From Simplicispira psychrophila DSM 11588 (lineage in GTDB: Bacteria > Pseudomonadota > Gammaproteobacteria > Burkholderiales > Burkholderiaceae_C), in NCBI RefSeq assembly GCF_000688255.1, contig NZ_JHYS01000007.1:1-64000 (forward strand): a stretch of DNA of 64,000 bases, given 5' to 3'. The position numbers were made by a program, and so were the translations under genes. Positions within the stretch are counted from its first letter, which is position 1, and each line of letters opens with the position of its first letter. Shown piece by piece: positions 8,676 to 16,250 of the stretch. The notes under the pieces were generated by a model that did not search any database, was not told the DNA's origin, and was given only the letters and a program-made list of their open reading frames with translations.

Positions 8676-9335
8676 ATGCAAACGAACACGCTGCACGTTA
8701 CCGCGCTGGGCAAGCACTACGGTAGCACCCCAGTGTTTACCAACGTCGATTTCAGCGTGCAGCCGGGTGAATTTGTTGCCATCGTCGGCGATTCCGGGGT
8801 GGGCAAATCCACCCTGCTCAACTGCCTAGCCGGATTGGACGAGTGGGACAGCGGCCGCATCGTGCAGGGCGATACCGATCTGGGAACGCTGGACGAAACC
8901 CAGCGCGCCCTGTGGCGGCGCGTGCAGGTCGGCTTTGTGTTCCAGGCCTTCCACGTCTTGCCGCACCTCGATGTAGCGCAAAACGTCGCCCTGCCACTGT
9001 TGCTGCTAGGCCGCCCCGATGCCGCACGGGTGCAGCACATGCTGGACGCAGTCGGCCTGGGCGATCTGGGTGCGCGCCTACCGCAGCAATTGAGCGGTGG
9101 CCAATTGCAACGCGTGGCGCTGGCGCGGGCGCTGGTACACCGCCCAGCCCTGCTGCTGGCCGACGAGCCGACCGGCAACCTCGACCCTGGCACCGCAGCG
9201 CGCACCATGGACTTGCTGCTGGCACAAACGCGCGAACAAGGCGCCGCGCTGGTGCTGGTCACGCACTCGGCCAGTGCAGCCGCACGCGCCGACCGGGTAC
9301 TGCGCCTGACAGCGCAGGGCATGGGCCCGGCCTGA
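8676..9335 (+). CDS. ABC transporter ATPase of the LolD/MacB group
   Basis: A 219-residue cytoplasmic ATPase. Walker A is GDSGVGKST (38-46), the Q loop is in GFVFQAFHVLPHLDVAQNV, the signature is LSGGQLQRVALARAL and Walker B is LLLADEPTG. The sequence FQAFHVLPHL is typical of LolD/MacB/FtsE ATPases that pair with FtsX-type permeases. The start codon lies 2 nt after the miaA stop. The fitting permease is on the same strand at 13614, but more than 4 kb away, with a protease gene on the other strand in between. The two probably formed one operon before that gene arrived. Confidence 0.9.
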   Translation: MQTNTLHVTALGKHYGSTPVFTNVDFSVQPGEFVAIVGDSGVGKSTLLNCLAGLDEWDSGRIVQGDTDLGTLDETQRALWRRVQVGFVFQAFHVLPHLDVAQNVALPLLLLGRPDAARVQHMLDAVGLGDLGARLPQQLSGGQLQRVALARALVHRPALLLADEPTGNLDPGTAARTMDLLLAQTREQGAALVLVTHSASAAARADRVLRLTAQGMGPA

Positions 9336-9345
9336 TGCGGACTAG

Positions 9346-9423
9346 AAAAAAGCCCCCACAGCTTGTAATACAAGCGCTGAGGGCTATTTAAACCATAGCA
9401 CCATCCGCTATGGCGCTGCTTTT
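9346..9423. terminator. Hairpins between the convergent ABC ATPase and protease genes
   Basis: Two inverted repeats fill the gap. AGCCCCCACAGCTTGTAATA followed by CAAGCGCTGAGGGCT forms a long imperfect stem flanked by A and T tracts on both sides, and CCATAGC-N7-GCTATGG is followed by CGCTGCTTTTTT. Either strand could terminate here. The first hairpin also looks like a diverged copy of the interspersed repeat (AAGCGCTGAGGGCTATTT). Confidence 0.7.
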
Positions 9424-12400
9424 TTAAAAGCGGGCGGCGTACTCTGAGGAGCGCAGCAGACTGTCAATCAGCTCCAAGACCCTAGAAGGTTCAGCCTGGA
9501 TGTCCACAAGCCACTGGGAGTGCTCCATGCTATGGGGCACCCGTCGCAACATACCCACGTATGTGATGGTGACAAGCTGCGAGTTGGCACTGGCTTGCTG
9601 GTTTTCGGTGGATTCGGAAAAGCCCAACATCACCTCGCCACGCGGCATGCCATCAGCCAAGCGCCCCACCCAGTAAGCGTAGCCTTCAGGCTCTGGGTCA
9701 CGACCCAACACATTTTGGTACACGCGGGTAATAAAACCGGTATTGCTCAGCTGTCCATAGGTCGCAATAAATTCACTCGATTGAGCGAAGGCGTCAGATA
9801 CCTTCACTAAATTCAAGCCGGTGCTGCTGCGGGGGTACATGCTGTTAAACCAATACATCAACCCCTCGTAATCAGGCAGGCGTTTGAAGTAGGCGGTGTA
9901 CAACCGCACGATGGGATCAAGGCGGCCTCGGAATGCATCCGACTTCATGAGTGACTCCACGACCTGTGCACGCGTGGTAGTACCGAATTTGAGCCGATTG
10001 ACCCAATCATCCAAGCTGACAGCATCCGGCGTAAGACCCAAGAAGTCTCGATACTGCTGTGTGACGAAATTCGCTGGGTCAGACAGGGGATCAAAGCCGT
10101 TGGTACTGAAATTCGCTGTCACGCTAAGCGCGCTGTCCAAAGTCACGGTACAACTGTCGTCAGTACCGCTGCAAGCACCACCCCAGCCAGCAAAGTTGCT
10201 GCCGTTACTGGCTTGGGCACGTAACGTGATGGTGGTGTTGGTGTCCACTGTGGCCAGGCAGGAATCGCCGCAATTCAGCAGCGGAGCGCCCAGGGCCAGT
10301 TGGGTCTGCGTTTGCAGCCAAGGCTGATAGTTGGCAACCCGCGTGTAAACACCAGGGTAGTCAGGTGAAGCACAGCCCTCCCCCCAACTGACGATGCCTG
10401 CCAGTACATGACCACCTTGGCCATTGGACACCACCAGAGGACCACCGCTGTCACCTTGGCAGGAATCTTTGCCGCCTTGCTTGTAGCCGGCGCAGATCAT
10501 GTTGCTCGACAATTGACTGCTGGGGTAGGCAGATTGGTTAGCACAATCACTGCTGCTGATCAGTGGGACTTGCGCCTGCATCAACACCGTCGATACGCTA
10601 CCGCCTGGGCTGGTAGTGCCCCAACCGGTGACAGTAGCCAATGTGGTGGTAGCAGCCAGTTGCTGCTCTTGGGATGCTGACAGGGGCGCTATCGGGCGGA
10701 TAGTGCTTGATAGTGGCAGCGGGCTAGACAGGCGCAGCAAAGCAATGTCGTTGTCGGTAGTAGCCGTCTCATAGGCATAGTGTTTGATCACGCGACTCAC
10801 GCCGACTACCACACCGCCACTGTCCTTTTGCAGTGAACCGGCGCGCACCGTGACGTTGGCAGGACTGATGGTGCTATTTGCGTCATCTTCGATGCAATGT
10901 GCGGCTGTGAGCACCCATTGATCAGACACCAGGGTGCCGCCGCACAAGAAGCTGCCTTGCTGGGTAGTAATGTTCAGACGTACTTGCCAGGGCCATGCGC
11001 CAAGCTGTGCTGGCCCGCCACCGACGATAGTGGGACCAGACAAACCGGCAGGTGAAGGCATTTTTGCTGCCATGGTCGATGAGGAGGACTGCACTGTACC
11101 CTGGCCTGCGCCTGTTTTGGTCACGTTCAGCGTAGCCTTGGAACTGGGCATCCGGTAAGTTACGCGCAGCGTGATACCTCTGTAGGCCTCATACCCGTTG
11201 AGCAGGATGTAATAGTCGCCCGAACGGGGTGTTGTCAGACCACAGCTTTCTGCATTGCCTGAGTTGTTGGATTTGCAGTCATACGCTTTCAGGGTAGGTG
11301 GTGCACCAAATTTGACGTACAAGTCCGCATCACCCAGTCCGCCTGAAGTGGTCACGGCCAGATTAGTGGCGCCAGGAGGCAGCTGCACCACAAAATTAGC
11401 AGAGCCGCTAGCTGCATCTGAAAGGTTGGACAGGTGGAGGAGTGTGACCGCCTCAATTGCGCTGCTGCTGTTGAAGAGGGCCGTGACATTAGCGGTGCCG
11501 GTGCCTGCGGCGATATTGCATTGACTGGTACCGCTGCAAGCGCCACTCCAGCCCGCAAAGGTGCTACCCGCTGCCGGGGTGGCTGTCAAAACAAGGGGAC
11601 TGGCGGATGGAAAGTTCGAGGAGATGCTACCGCAAGATACGTCACAGTAGAGGCCGGCAGGAGCGCTAGCTACAGTTCCCTTGCCCGATTTGCTCAATGC
11701 GACCAGTCGCATACCTCCTGTAATAGCAAAGCTGGCCGTCACGCTGCGTGCAGCGCTCATAGTGACAGTACAAGTGCTGGTTGTGCCGGTGCAGGCACCA
11801 GTCCAGCCCAGAAAAGAGCCACCGCCAGAAGCAACAGCGGTCAAAGTCACACTGCTATTGGTACTGAAAGTCGAAGAGCAGTTGGTGCCGCAATTCATAC
11901 CGGCAGGAGCACTGGTCACGGTGCCATCGCCAGACTTGGTCACGGACAAGGTATAGCCACCGACGTTAATAACATCCAGAGCCTGCGACACTTGGATACG
12001 TGGCTTGGTCATGCCACTTCTCAGATCAGCCACTGACTTGCCTGTAACGACGAAGGCATTGAGCACCTCATCGACCGTAGCAGACGGTTTTTTCTGTTTC
12101 AAGACAGCCCATGCTCCTGCGACATGAGGCGTAGCCATGGAGGTACCAGAATAACTATCGTACGCGTTACCCACAATAGAAGAGTTAATCTCGGATCCTG
12201 GCGCCAAGAGGTTCAGGAACGATACCGAATTGGAGAAGCATGAAATATCGTCTGTAGCAGAGATACCTAAGTTGTTACCGAGGCAAGAATTGTCCAATCC
12301 TGCTTTAGCCCAAGTCGAACCCACACTAATGGCAGTGGAGATACAGCCCGGTGCAGCCATGGCATTGATGTAACCACCATTACCTGAAGCAATGATGGTG

Positions 12401-13464
12401 GCAATATTGGCAGCACGCAGGTTGTCAATCGCAACTTTGGTCGCCGCATTCTCACTATCGCAAGTTGGCTGGCTGGTATATTTCCCGCCCCCCAAACTCA
12501 TGTTAACGGCAGCAATTGAGTAGGTATTACGCAACGCATAAACCCGCTCTAAAGCCATGATGATGTCAGAGTCATAGCTAGACACGCAGGGGGCTTGACC
12601 AACCCCACAGGCATCTTCCGTGCTGAACTTGGAGAATACCTGCATCGCAATGATGCTGGCATCTTTGGCAACACCCACAGGCGCATTGCTGGGTCCGCCG
12701 TTGCCCGCTACGATGCCTGCCACATGGGTACCATGCGAACAACTATCGATGCCGACGCAAGGCGCACCAGAGCCCACAGCCGTAGAGACCGCCACCCCAC
12801 CAGGGCAAACGGAGGCAGCACCTTCGCGTACATCTGTGGTGGAAAAGCAGGCTTCTGCAATCACTTTATTTCTCAGAAATGGGTGGATTTTTTCTACCCC
12901 GGTATCTAGTACAGCCACTGCTTGCCCAGCACCGCTATAGCCACCGCTCGACGCCGTGTTGCCGCCAATATGTGGCACGCTGTTGAAAAGAGTGACGGGT
13001 AGTGCCTTGTCTTTCTGGATCGAAGTGATCTCAGGCATTTGCTGCAAAGTTTTCAAATCCTGTGCAGTCACCGACATGGCCAAGTACGGAATACTGGAAA
13101 AGCGCCGCACGGTGCTGTTTTGCTGTACTAATTGGGGCAGGCGCGCCAGCACTGCCGATTGCGCGCCGGCGATTTCATTGCGCTGCTGAACCACAGCAGT
13201 TGCAGGCAGCTTCCCCTCAGGCGCAAACGCGACACGGACACCAACAATTACGCGGACTGAGCCATTTGTTTGCGCAGTGCTTGCCAAGTCTTGCAAAGTT
13301 GCGCGCAACGCTGGCGACGATACCGCCGCTTGACCTATACCTACAGTTTCGCCCAGCACTTCTCTGTCTATGACAGCGGCGCTGGCGGCTGACAAGGCCA
13401 AACCCACTATCGCCACCACGATGGTGCACCGCAGAGTGTTCAAAATTCTCCATGAATTTTTCAT
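9424..13464 (-). CDS. Secreted double protease: subtilisin S8 plus trypsin S1 in one chain
   Basis: A 1346-residue exported protein; the start at 13464 has AAGGA upstream and gives a signal peptide (about 1-29). Domains in order: I9-like propeptide (70-156); subtilisin domain (160-500) with Asp187 (DTG), His244 (HGTHVAG), Asn362 and Ser442 (GTSMATPHVAG); two InlB-like repeats (504-580, 585-664); a PPC domain (683-771); the first strand of a third repeat (777-793); a trypsin domain (813-1050) with IVGG, His856 (TAAHC), Asp906 (DNDIALL), Asp1000 (S1 pocket, Arg/Lys specificity) and Ser1006 (GDSGGP); the rest of the third repeat (1059-1121); then DUF4214-like units to the end. All six triad residues are present. 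The gene interrupts the ABC operon and looks less GC-rich than its neighbours, so acquisition by transfer is likely. Confidence 0.9.
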   Translation of the reverse strand: MKNSWRILNTLRCTIVVAIVGLALSAASAAVIDREVLGETVGIGQAAVSSPALRATLQDLASTAQTNGSVRVIVGVRVAFAPEGKLPATAVVQQRNEIAGAQSAVLARLPQLVQQNSTVRRFSSIPYLAMSVTAQDLKTLQQMPEITSIQKDKALPVTLFNSVPHIGGNTASSGGYSGAGQAVAVLDTGVEKIHPFLRNKVIAEACFSTTDVREGAASVCPGGVAVSTAVGSGAPCVGIDSCSHGTHVAGIVAGNGGPSNAPVGVAKDASIIAMQVFSKFSTEDACGVGQAPCVSSYDSDIIMALERVYALRNTYSIAAVNMSLGGGKYTSQPTCDSENAATKVAIDNLRAANIATIIASGNGGYINAMAAPGCISTAISVGSTWAKAGLDNSCLGNNLGISATDDISCFSNSVSFLNLLAPGSEINSSIVGNAYDSYSGTSMATPHVAGAWAVLKQKKPSATVDEVLNAFVVTGKSVADLRSGMTKPRIQVSQALDVINVGGYTLSVTKSGDGTVTSAPAGMNCGTNCSSTFSTNSSVTLTAVASGGGSFLGWTGACTGTTSTCTVTMSAARSVTASFAITGGMRLVALSKSGKGTVASAPAGLYCDVSCGSISSNFPSASPLVLTATPAAGSTFAGWSGACSGTSQCNIAAGTGTANVTALFNSSSAIEAVTLLHLSNLSDAASGSANFVVQLPPGATNLAVTTSGGLGDADLYVKFGAPPTLKAYDCKSNNSGNAESCGLTTPRSGDYYILLNGYEAYRGITLRVTYRMPSSKATLNVTKTGAGQGTVQSSSSTMAAKMPSPAGLSGPTIVGGGPAQLGAWPWQVRLNITTQQGSFLCGGTLVSDQWVLTAAHCIEDDANSTISPANVTVRAGSLQKDSGGVVVGVSRVIKHYAYETATTDNDIALLRLSSPLPLSSTIRPIAPLSASQEQQLAATTTLATVTGWGTTSPGGSVSTVLMQAQVPLISSSDCANQSAYPSSQLSSNMICAGYKQGGKDSCQGDSGGPLVVSNGQGGHVLAGIVSWGEGCASPDYPGVYTRVANYQPWLQTQTQLALGAPLLNCGDSCLATVDTNTTITLRAQASNGSNFAGWGGACSGTDDSCTVTLDSALSVTANFSTNGFDPLSDPANFVTQQYRDFLGLTPDAVSLDDWVNRLKFGTTTRAQVVESLMKSDAFRGRLDPIVRLYTAYFKRLPDYEGLMYWFNSMYPRSSTGLNLVKVSDAFAQSSEFIATYGQLSNTGFITRVYQNVLGRDPEPEGYAYWVGRLADGMPRGEVMLGFSESTENQQASANSQLVTITYVGMLRRVPHSMEHSQWLVDIQAEPSRVLELIDSLLRSSEYAARF

Positions 13465-13613
13465 GGGCCGTTCCTTTGTGTGTATTCGAAAAAATGCGGT
13501 GTGATCAGTGCTTCTCATGGCATAAAGCGCTGCGCTGAGCAAGTGTAGCTCGGTGTAACTTTGTCTCACCCGAGGTGAGATCGAAGCCGGGGCGGCGCGC
13601 CACAATAGGCGCC

Positions 13614-16250
13614 ATGTGGGATTTGCTTCGCCTTTGGTCTGTACAGGAACTGCGCCACCACCCTTGGCGCAGCACAGCAGCCGTGTTTGCGGTGGTGTTG
13701 GGCGTGGCGCTGGCGTTTGCCGTGCACACCATCAATGCCTCGGCGCTGGGGGAGTTTGCCCAGGCGCTGCGCAGCGTCAGCGGCCAGCCGGACTTGCAAT
13801 TGCGCGCCGCCCAGGGCAGTCTGGATGAAGCGCTGTTCGCTCGCCTGGCCACCCACCCGCAGGTGGCGCACGCCAGTCCGATACTCGATATATCGGTGCT
13901 GGCACTGCCGGCCCCGGCTGCCGGCAACGACGCCACAACGTCCGATACGGCTGGCACTCCCGCAATACCCATCGCACTGCGCCTGATCGGCGCCGATGCG
14001 TTGCTGCTGCCGCGCATGGCGCCCGACCTGATGCCACGCCCGTTTGCCTCCTTGGAGCCGGATCGTTTGGTGCTGTTCGCTCCTGCCACAGTATTTCTCA
14101 ACGCTGCCGCGCAGCAGGCGCTGGGCCTGGGCGATACGCCGTCGCAGGCGCCACAACTGCTGCTGCAAGTCGGCTTGCAACGCCTGCAAGTGCGCGTGGC
14201 CGGTAGCGTGGCGGCAAGCGGCGCACCACTGGCGGTGATGGACATTGGCGCCGCACAAGACCTGCTCGGGCGCATCGGTGAACTCAGCCGCATTGACGTG
14301 CAGCTGCGCCCCGGCACCGTGCCCAGCCCCTTCCGCCAGTCCTTGCAGGACGCACCCGACTGGCCTGCCGGACTGATCTGGTCTGAGCCGGGCGACGCAG
14401 CGCAGAGCGTGCACCAACTATCACGCGCTTACCGCGTCAACTTGACGGTGCTGGCGCTGGTGGCGCTGTTCACTGGGGCCTATCTGGTGTTTTCGGTGCT
14501 GGCGCTGAGCGTGACGCAGCGCGCGCCGCAGTTTGCACTACTGGCGGTGCTGGGCGCCACGCCGCGCCAGCGCCTGTTGTTGGTGCTGACCGAGTCGCTG
14601 GTGTTAGGGCTGGTCGGCAGCGCCAGCGGTATTGCACTGGGCACGGCGCTGGCAGCGGGCGCGCTTCAACTGCTGGGCGGTGATTTGGGCGGCGGCTATT
14701 TTTCGGGTACGCAACCGGCGTTGCAGTTCAGCACAACGGCGGCGCTGATCTATGGCGCACTGGGCACCGGTGCGGCACTGCTGGGCGGCTGGTGGCCGGC
14801 GCGCACAGCGCAGGCGCTGCCGGCGGCGCAAACCCTGAAAAGCCTGGGGCTGAGCGACACGCGCCAGCCGTCGGGCCGCTGGGGCATGATTTTGATAGCT
14901 ATCAGCGCTGGCCTGGTCTACGTTCCACCCATTTTTAGCATTCCTCTGGCAGCGTATGTGGCGATTGGCCTGGGGCTGGTCGGCGGCATTGCGCTGCTGC
15001 CCTGGGGTGTGGCACTGCTGCTGCGCGCCCTGCGGCCGCTGGTGCAGCAGCGCTTGCTGCCCCTGCTGGCCCTGGAACGCGCCCGGCGTGCACGCGGCAC
15101 GGCGGCGGTGGCGGTCGGCGGGGTCGTGGCCAGTCTGAGTCTGGCGGTGGCACTGACGGTGATGGTGGGCAGCTTTCGCGGCTCGGTGATGGACTGGCTG
15201 GACGCGGTATTACCAGCACCACTGTACGTGCGCAGCGCCGGCGCGCGCAGCGGCGACACGCCGGCCTTCAGCGCGGCGCTGGTGCAGCGCATTGCGCAAC
15301 TGGACGGTGTCGAGCGCGTGCAAGGCGCGCGCTATGTGCCGCTACTGCTGGCACCGACACGGCCGTCCCTCGTGCTGATCGCGCGGTTACTCACCAACGA
15401 CCCAGCGCGCACCCTGCCGCTGGTGGCACCCGCCCTGCCAGTGCCGGCAGGCCGTATCGGCATTTATGTCAGCGAGGCTGTGGTGGACTTATGGAAAGTG
15501 GCGCCAGGGGAGAATTTTGCAGCGTTTTCTGAGTCTTTTAGGCCTCTAGCCCATACAAATCATGCGCTAGTAGCTTCTTTTTTTATAGCAGGGGTGTGGC
15601 GCGACTATGCCCGCCAGAGCGGTACAGTGGTGATGGATGCGGCTGACTACACGCGCCTGACGGGCGACGACCGCGCCAATGACTTGTCGCTGTGGCCACG
15701 CCAGGGCACGGATCTGGCGGCGCTGGAGCACGCCATCAGCACGCTGGTTGCGCCGGGGGTTTCAGAGACTTCAGCGCAAGGCTTGCTGGAATTTACCGCC
15801 GCCCAAACCATCCGCACGCGCTCACTGCAGATTTTTGACCGCAGCTTTGCCGTCACCTACTGGCTGCAGGCGGTCGCCATCGGCATTGGCCTGTTTGGCG
15901 TCGCCGCCAGCTTCAGCGCGCAGGTGCTGGCGCGGCGCAAGGAGTTTGGCCTACTGGCCCACCTGGGTCTGACGCGGCGGCAGATTTTGACGGTGGTCGC
16001 TGGCGAAGGCGTAGCTTGGACAACGGTGGGCGCGCTGGCTGGCGTGCTGCTCGGCTTGGCGGTATCGGTGGTGCTGGTGCATGTGGTGAATCCACAGAGC
16101 TTTCACTGGACGATGGATTTGCGCGTACCTTGGGAGCGTCTGCTGGCGCTGGCGCTGGCCGTGGTGGTGGCCGGCACCGCCACGGCTTGGCTGGCCGGGC
16201 GCGCCGCAGCGGGGCAGCAGGCAGTGCTGGCCGTGAAGGAAGATTGGTAA
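13614..16250 (+). CDS. ABC transporter permease with two FtsX domains
   Basis: An 878-residue inner-membrane protein: one N-terminal membrane helix (about 18-40), a large periplasmic part, an FtsX block of three helices near 275-410, two more helices near 430-480, a further periplasmic part and a second FtsX block at the C-terminus (about 755-865). This MacB/YbbP-type layout pairs with the LolD-like ATPase at 8676. Such systems act on the periplasmic or outer-membrane side, for example on lipoproteins or exported molecules; the substrate is not evident. It is followed after 3 nt by the CrtC-like gene. Two repeat copies lie in frame (14889-14939 and 15531-15586), adding sequence such as FRPLAHTNHALVASFF. 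Confidence 0.85.
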   Translation: MWDLLRLWSVQELRHHPWRSTAAVFAVVLGVALAFAVHTINASALGEFAQALRSVSGQPDLQLRAAQGSLDEALFARLATHPQVAHASPILDISVLALPAPAAGNDATTSDTAGTPAIPIALRLIGADALLLPRMAPDLMPRPFASLEPDRLVLFAPATVFLNAAAQQALGLGDTPSQAPQLLLQVGLQRLQVRVAGSVAASGAPLAVMDIGAAQDLLGRIGELSRIDVQLRPGTVPSPFRQSLQDAPDWPAGLIWSEPGDAAQSVHQLSRAYRVNLTVLALVALFTGAYLVFSVLALSVTQRAPQFALLAVLGATPRQRLLLVLTESLVLGLVGSASGIALGTALAAGALQLLGGDLGGGYFSGTQPALQFSTTAALIYGALGTGAALLGGWWPARTAQALPAAQTLKSLGLSDTRQPSGRWGMILIAISAGLVYVPPIFSIPLAAYVAIGLGLVGGIALLPWGVALLLRALRPLVQQRLLPLLALERARRARGTAAVAVGGVVASLSLAVALTVMVGSFRGSVMDWLDAVLPAPLYVRSAGARSGDTPAFSAALVQRIAQLDGVERVQGARYVPLLLAPTRPSLVLIARLLTNDPARTLPLVAPALPVPAGRIGIYVSEAVVDLWKVAPGENFAAFSESFRPLAHTNHALVASFFIAGVWRDYARQSGTVVMDAADYTRLTGDDRANDLSLWPRQGTDLAALEHAISTLVAPGVSETSAQGLLEFTAAQTIRTRSLQIFDRSFAVTYWLQAVAIGIGLFGVAASFSAQVLARRKEFGLLAHLGLTRRQILTVVAGEGVAWTTVGALAGVLLGLAVSVVLVHVVNPQSFHWTMDLRVPWERLLALALAVVVAGTATAWLAGRAAAGQQAVLAVKEDW
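14889..14939 (+). repeat. Interspersed repeat, diverged copy in the FtsX permease gene
   Basis: GATAGCTATCAGCGCTGGCC, then CCCATTTTTAGC, matches the copy at 48861 (TAGCTAGTAGCGCT, TGGT, CCATTTTTA) in the same order and spacing. It is in frame and encodes part of a membrane helix. Confidence 0.5.
15531..15586 (-). repeat. Interspersed repeat, inverted copy in the FtsX permease gene
   Basis: On the minus strand the copy reads GAAGCTACTAGCGCATGATT, then GGGCTAGAGGCCTAAAAG, a good match to the family. It is read in frame in the permease gene at about residues 640-658. Confidence 0.75.

Follow-up and report, generated by a model that had tools for sequence, protein, structure and literature searches.

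We analyzed a 64,000-nucleotide stretch of the Simplicispira psychrophila DSM 11588 genome (RefSeq assembly GCF_000688255.1, contig NZ_JHYS01000007.1, positions 1 to 64,000; hereafter "the window") in which a single reverse-strand gene at 9424-13464 encodes a putative exoprotease in which two complete serine protease domains with unrelated folds, one subtilisin-type (family S8) and one trypsin-type (family S1), share a chain. The trypsin is predicted to sit nested in the third of the protein's InlB-type B-repeats, and comparison with related loci shows the unit of B-repeat plus trypsin to be a cassette that becomes joined by recombination to different N-terminal proteases. Both the nesting and the reuse of the cassette behind other proteases went unnoticed in an earlier note on this DNA (the original prediction), which had described the two proteases. 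For the mechanism, we give an even chance to a secreted enzyme of two specificities in which the S8 domain would activate the nested trypsin zymogen and the split repeat would act as a clasp that retains it.

The gene translates into 1346 residues without an internal stop, and both Pfam protease domains score well over cut-off, with the catalytic residues where the original prediction had placed them. The Peptidase_S8 domain (residues 178-472, 12049-12933; all features of the protein lie on the reverse strand) matches with E 3e-31 and 109.2 bits against a cut-off of 21.8, and a motif search recovers the triad Asp187, His244 and Ser442 together with the oxyanion Asn362, in order. The Trypsin (S1A) domain (residues 813-1050, 10315-11028) matches with E 7e-67 and 225.9 bits against 20.6; it begins with IVGG, contains His856, Asp906 and Ser1006 within GDSGG, and has Asp1000 at the Asp189 position. 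In the 3.6 Mb genome this protein is the sole S8 match at E ≤ 0.001, and its trypsin tops the five trypsin-family matches (230 bits versus at most 77). Purifying selection acts on both protease domains: in comparison with the congener G004 (G numbers denote searched genomes, G000 being the window's own, and L numbers denote loci), the ratio of nonsynonymous to synonymous substitution rates (dN/dS) is 0.15 for S8 and 0.08 for S1, the latter being the most conserved module at 85% identity. The linker that precedes the trypsin has the highest dN/dS among modules (0.37 versus G004, 0.47 versus G013).

Around the proteases, Pfam and profile alignment place B-repeat 1 (family Flg_new_2; residues 504-581, 11722-11955) and B-repeat 2 (residues about 584-668, 11461-11715), both uninterrupted, followed by a PPC domain (residues 693-756, 11197-11388) and, at the C terminus, two matched stretches of a DUF4214 region (residues about 1125-1346, 9427-10092). 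Flg_new_2 reaches 63.2 bits over three stretches (cut-off 23.6), PPC 48.3 (25.9), and DUF4214 128.5 (23.2). At the N terminus, the signal peptide that had been predicted is indeed present, as judged by eye from the translation (residues 1-30, approximate boundary, 13375-13464). The propeptide region after it (residues 31-165, approximate boundary, 12970-13374) had been called I9-like; Inhibitor_I9 gives no Pfam match in the window protein even at E ≤ 10, and the label is weakly supported, by sub-threshold matches in a pair of homologues (E 0.0015 and 0.014). A sequence resembling a ribosome-binding site, AAGGAA, reads at 13471-13476 on the reverse strand, upstream of the ATG at 13464. As the genome encodes two type II secretin genes above cut-off, export by Sec and type II secretion is likely. 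Separately from both, a secretin-like type II gene lies in two pieces, with one internal TAA, at G000:C1:191601-192908.

The case for nesting comes from the third B-repeat, which breaks off at about position 16 of the 76-position profile and picks up again at about position 20, with the trypsin in between. Its N-terminal half (residues 777-795, 11080-11136) includes LNVTKTGAGQGTVQSS from residue 779; its C-terminal half (residues 1063-1121, 10102-10278) covers profile positions 20-76 here and in G004, G013 and G017, 6-76 in G016 and 17-76 in Thiobaca. When segments were scored with a position matrix built from intact B-repeats of the genus, the one directly before the trypsin ranked first in the window protein, G004, G013 and Thiobaca, and second in G016 and G017, after an intact first repeat that is itself a seed row of the matrix. 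In all six proteins tested this half lies 30-35 residues ahead of the trypsin start. The uninterrupted layout is shown by a G022 protein without a trypsin match, in which an intact B-repeat directly follows the PPC domain.

Structure prediction, which the original prediction had proposed as a check, was carried out for residues 670-1125, a span that leaves the S8 half outside, and gave a mean predicted local distance difference test score (pLDDT) of 85.5. In this model the N-terminal half of the repeat forms two strands (776-784 and 789-795) and the C-terminal half five, while the activation linker (residues 796-812, 11029-11079), which ends in Pro-Thr before Ile813, falls below a pLDDT of 50, a low confidence that we take as disorder. 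The modelled S1 part superposes on the catalytic domains of factor XIa and plasma kallikrein with a template modelling (TM) score, by target, of about 0.9; plasma kallikrein also provides the closest solved chains by sequence (E 2e-53).

Within the genus, S8 and S1 occur in one chain in 4 of the 26 genomes searched (G000, G004, G016, G013). The protein is whole, in a single open frame, in G004 (72% identity) and G016 (61% over residues 33-1346); in G013 two pieces, each at a contig end, carry its termini (residues 1-469 and 752-1346), and we counted them as one gene. Another congener, G017, has the B-repeat-trypsin cassette behind an M12B metalloprotease (L021:4608-8531). In a quick tree built from 104 trypsin domains (fragments shorter than 190 or longer than 330 residues were dropped), the G017 trypsin lies within the branch of the S8 fusions, with a Shimodaira-Hasegawa-like approximate likelihood ratio test (SH-aLRT) support of 99, starred. 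Its M12B domain and first two B-repeats have their nearest counterparts among the genus's M12B proteins (75, 71 and 70% identity), whereas the halves of its third repeat and the trypsin are closest to the S8 fusions (76-82%; the trypsin is 80% identical to the window's), with PPC undecided (65% versus 64%). The tree position and the module identities together show that the partner was swapped, the break lying between the second and third B-repeats.

The cassette extends beyond the genus. In the order of Thiobaca trueperi, a search with the cassette as query matched 33 of 147 genomes, and the loci opened, those of the 16 genomes with a nested trypsin and of six of the other 17, hold 17 proteins with B-repeat-nested trypsins. 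The 16 genomes are a lower bound ("at least 16"), because the unopened matches in G702 and G793 end just within the second repeat half. One of the 147, G827, carries a second S8+S1 lineage (L195:3456-6860: S8, a B-repeat, a sub-threshold PPC and a nested trypsin), and a neighbouring gene (L195:11912-14344) places Lcl_C and PPC ahead of another nested trypsin. The whole locus (L195, 3-14344) reads as a cluster of B-repeat exoproteins, comprising an 849-residue protein with a PQQ_2 match, the S8+S1 fusion, an 1100-residue B-repeat protein and the Lcl_C/PPC/nested-trypsin protein. The 22 B-repeat-nested trypsins found are thus partnered at the N terminus by S8 (5), M12B (1), a lysyl-endopeptidase-like domain (15) and the non-protease Lcl_C (1). 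On the tree all 22 group with L016, a G016 trypsin that lies in no B-repeat (SH-aLRT 87, not starred), which is compatible with a single nesting event. Elsewhere on the tree lies the trypsin of an M12B protein from a Competibacteraceae metagenome-assembled genome (MAG; L046:289-3417), complete and placed within a PPC domain, which suggests that trypsins became nested in accessory domains on more than one occasion.

The original prediction had also held the two-protease layout to be unusual, and our searches bear this out: S8 and S1 share a chain only in this genus and in the one genome of the second order, and the combination is rare in the limited samples covered. Surveys of the family (200 genomes), class (229), phylum (249) and Bdellovibrio phylum (144), which scored the top 2-4 candidates of each genome, and of 11 genomes of trypsin relatives gave no further S8+S1 chain among the matches listed, where several long open frames were left unopened (e.g., G422, G293, G267, G440, G193, G918) and some of those opened are truncated at the end of the locus (G289, G523); the family, class and phylum samples overlap, and each includes the window's genome. 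Among the best 80 of at least 547 trypsin loci from 84,980 species genomes, a set from which records close to the window's genome were possibly omitted, S8 occurs in the same frame only in L033, a Burkholderiaceae MAG (contig JAIEMS010000012.1) that is apparently the G016 copy; the S8 and M12B profiles used there drew on five and six proteins, respectively, all from this genus, and no frame extends beyond its locus. Of 72,556 plasmid records, 436 match and none covers 80% of the query. Table 3 of a 2008 survey of prokaryotic serine proteases (PMC2605481) contains no architecture that combines subtilisin and trypsin. We found neither an S8+S1 bacterial chain nor a B-repeat-nested trypsin in literature titles and the openings of abstracts, with subscription papers and protein domain databases outside that search.

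How might the two proteases work together? The S8 domain would be a broad subtilisin-type protease, presumably freed on removal of the propeptide, and the trypsin would be produced as a zymogen within B-repeat 3, where the flexible linker ends in the activation site. The residue before IVGG (P1) is Thr812 and not the usual, though not universal, Arg or Lys, so self-activation of the trypsin is not expected and a different protease, possibly S8, must perform the step. We propose that the cut between Pro-Thr and Ile-Val-Gly-Gly is most likely made by S8, of the same or a neighbouring molecule, and that the new Ile813 end would turn on an Arg/Lys-specific trypsin by the established S1A mechanism. 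The linker has no cysteine, which rules out a linker disulphide as the tether of the activated trypsin, a role that the split repeat could fill. Because one repeat supplies the sequence on either side of the trypsin, the cut should not free it: the two repeat pieces would serve as a clasp. The B-repeats, PPC and DUF4214 may keep the enzyme at its substrate or at the surface.

The P1 residues across the family are consistent with this proposal up to a point. Among 86 trypsins (15 of lysyl-endopeptidase type and 3 unreadable rows were left out), 63 have Arg or Lys at P1, and all five S8 fusions have a non-basic residue (T, T, Q, S, M; Fisher p 0.001 versus the 81 trypsins without S8, with relatedness ignored), while P1 is Arg in G017 (M12B), in the Lcl_C protein of G827 and in L046 (M12B, PPC-nested). 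Several observations weigh on the other side. Non-basic P1 residues also occur in 18 of 81 trypsins without S8, among them the non-nested L016 of a congener (Gln) and six of the ten near relatives L035-L044; the trait was thus possibly inherited and not tied to S8. Independent pairs on starred branches of the tree run in the same direction or tie, and never run opposite, but there are two of them, too few for significance. Thr or Gln at P1 before Ile is not known as a favoured subtilisin site. The model of the intact repeats B1-B2 is poor (pLDDT 43.7), and the clasp idea draws solely on the order of modelled strands. The self-contained cascade that the original prediction had suggested is plausible, unproven and testable: Thr at P1 calls for another protease, possibly S8, but non-basic P1 residues are also found in relatives that lack S8.

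A contender that we regard as quite possible, if short of probable, is that both domains are active with no cascade between them, the trypsin being activated in trans by any secreted protease, such as an M12B enzyme of the same genome, and the fusion serving only to co-localize the two activities. The S8-less trypsins with non-basic P1 fit this explanation, and the window's genome does encode a protein with M12B, B-repeat and DUF4214 (L023); in G004 and G016 such a gene directly adjoins the fusion gene. Against it, the trypsins partnered by M12B in G017 and by a non-protease in G827 have Arg at P1, which their S8-bearing tree neighbours do not.

A third explanation, which we consider unlikely, takes the trypsin to be mainly a substrate-binding or regulatory module whose own activity is secondary. 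It is suggested by the proteins with a lysyl-endopeptidase-like partner, namely L034:4552-7089 of Thiobaca trueperi and 14 loci (L177-L186, L196-L199). Their N-terminal domain is Trypsin_2 by Pfam, run on 4 of the 15, with all 15 homologous by phmmer; we take "lysyl endopeptidase" to be a suitable name for it. All 15 retain the His, Asp and Ser of this domain's motifs, while the nested trypsin has lost Ser195 in 14/15; the remaining one, L179, retains Ser195 and is without Ile16, Asp189 and Gly193. The triad, IVGG and Asp189 are, however, intact in the window protein and in all seven remaining nested trypsins, which have other partners (G004, G016, G013, G017, two of G827, and L046), and the strong conservation of S1 relative to G004 likewise speaks against this explanation. 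Finally, an artefact, whether a misassembly or a recent chance fusion of two genes, found no support and is exceedingly improbable, given the same layout in single frames in G004 and G016 and, in another order, in G827, and the purifying selection on both protease domains; the whole G004 and G016 copies and the low dN/dS also refute the frameshift or misassembly between the domains against which the original prediction had cautioned.

The protease gene is antisense to its neighbours, with an ABC ATPase gene (8676-9335, forward strand), next to miaA, on one side and that of an ABC permease (13575-16250, forward strand), likely the partner of that ATPase, on the other. In 12/12 congeners with both ATPase and permease readable, the interval measures 0.5-0.75 kb and is without the protease gene. 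The two that we opened, G008 and G006, have a small antisense gene there (L116:969-1397 and L126:957-1448), presumably Hsp20-like, where the window (interval 9336-13574) and G013 have the protease gene, which amounts to a gene replacement at one site. The fusion-gene pieces of G013 adjoin permease and ATPase, as in the window; in G004 the ATPase-permease pair is on a different contig, and in G016 the permease was not found. We also considered horizontal transfer from base composition and rejected it as an argument: the gene's 2-kb windows have 56-57% GC versus 67% on either side, which proves little because the nuo operon in the window (named by eye) is also low, at 50-54%.

Set beside known systems, the protein resembles secreted S8 subtilases of the Subt-PPC layouts in PMC2605481 Table 3 in its S8 domain, C-terminal PPC, signal peptide and propeptide region, and differs from them by a second, unrelated protease nested in a repeat. 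Its trypsin shares the triad, Asp189 equivalent, IVGG start and fold of S1A trypsins (plasma kallikrein, factor XIa and hepsin being the nearest solved), but has Thr at P1, a cysteine-free linker and B-repeat halves on both flanks. The G017 protein (M12B, B-repeats, PPC, nested trypsin) has the cassette in common with the window protein, yet its N-terminal protease is a zinc metalloprotease, its P1 is Arg and its C-terminal end is another. Thiobaca trueperi L034 and its 14 counterparts have the trypsin nested at the same point of the B-repeat, with the different partner and the Ser195 losses described above.

The broader find thus appears to be a trypsin-in-B-repeat cassette common to several kinds of exoprotease, with apparently dead versions in one clade. 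More tentatively, and as a reading less likely than not, we suggest that the B-repeat-nested trypsin may be a general plug-in module of proteobacterial exoproteases, in which the split repeat is the clasp, the N-terminal partner is the activator, P1 follows the partner (non-basic with S8, otherwise Arg), and a catalytically dead accessory domain results behind the lysyl-endopeptidase-like partner. As judged from sequence, a trypsin housed in a repeat has been swapped among S8, M12B and lysyl-endopeptidase-like partners, its activation site varies, and its activity was lost in one clade. These related proteins would form a natural series for studying the activation of one protease by another in the same chain and the retention of a nested domain after cleavage.

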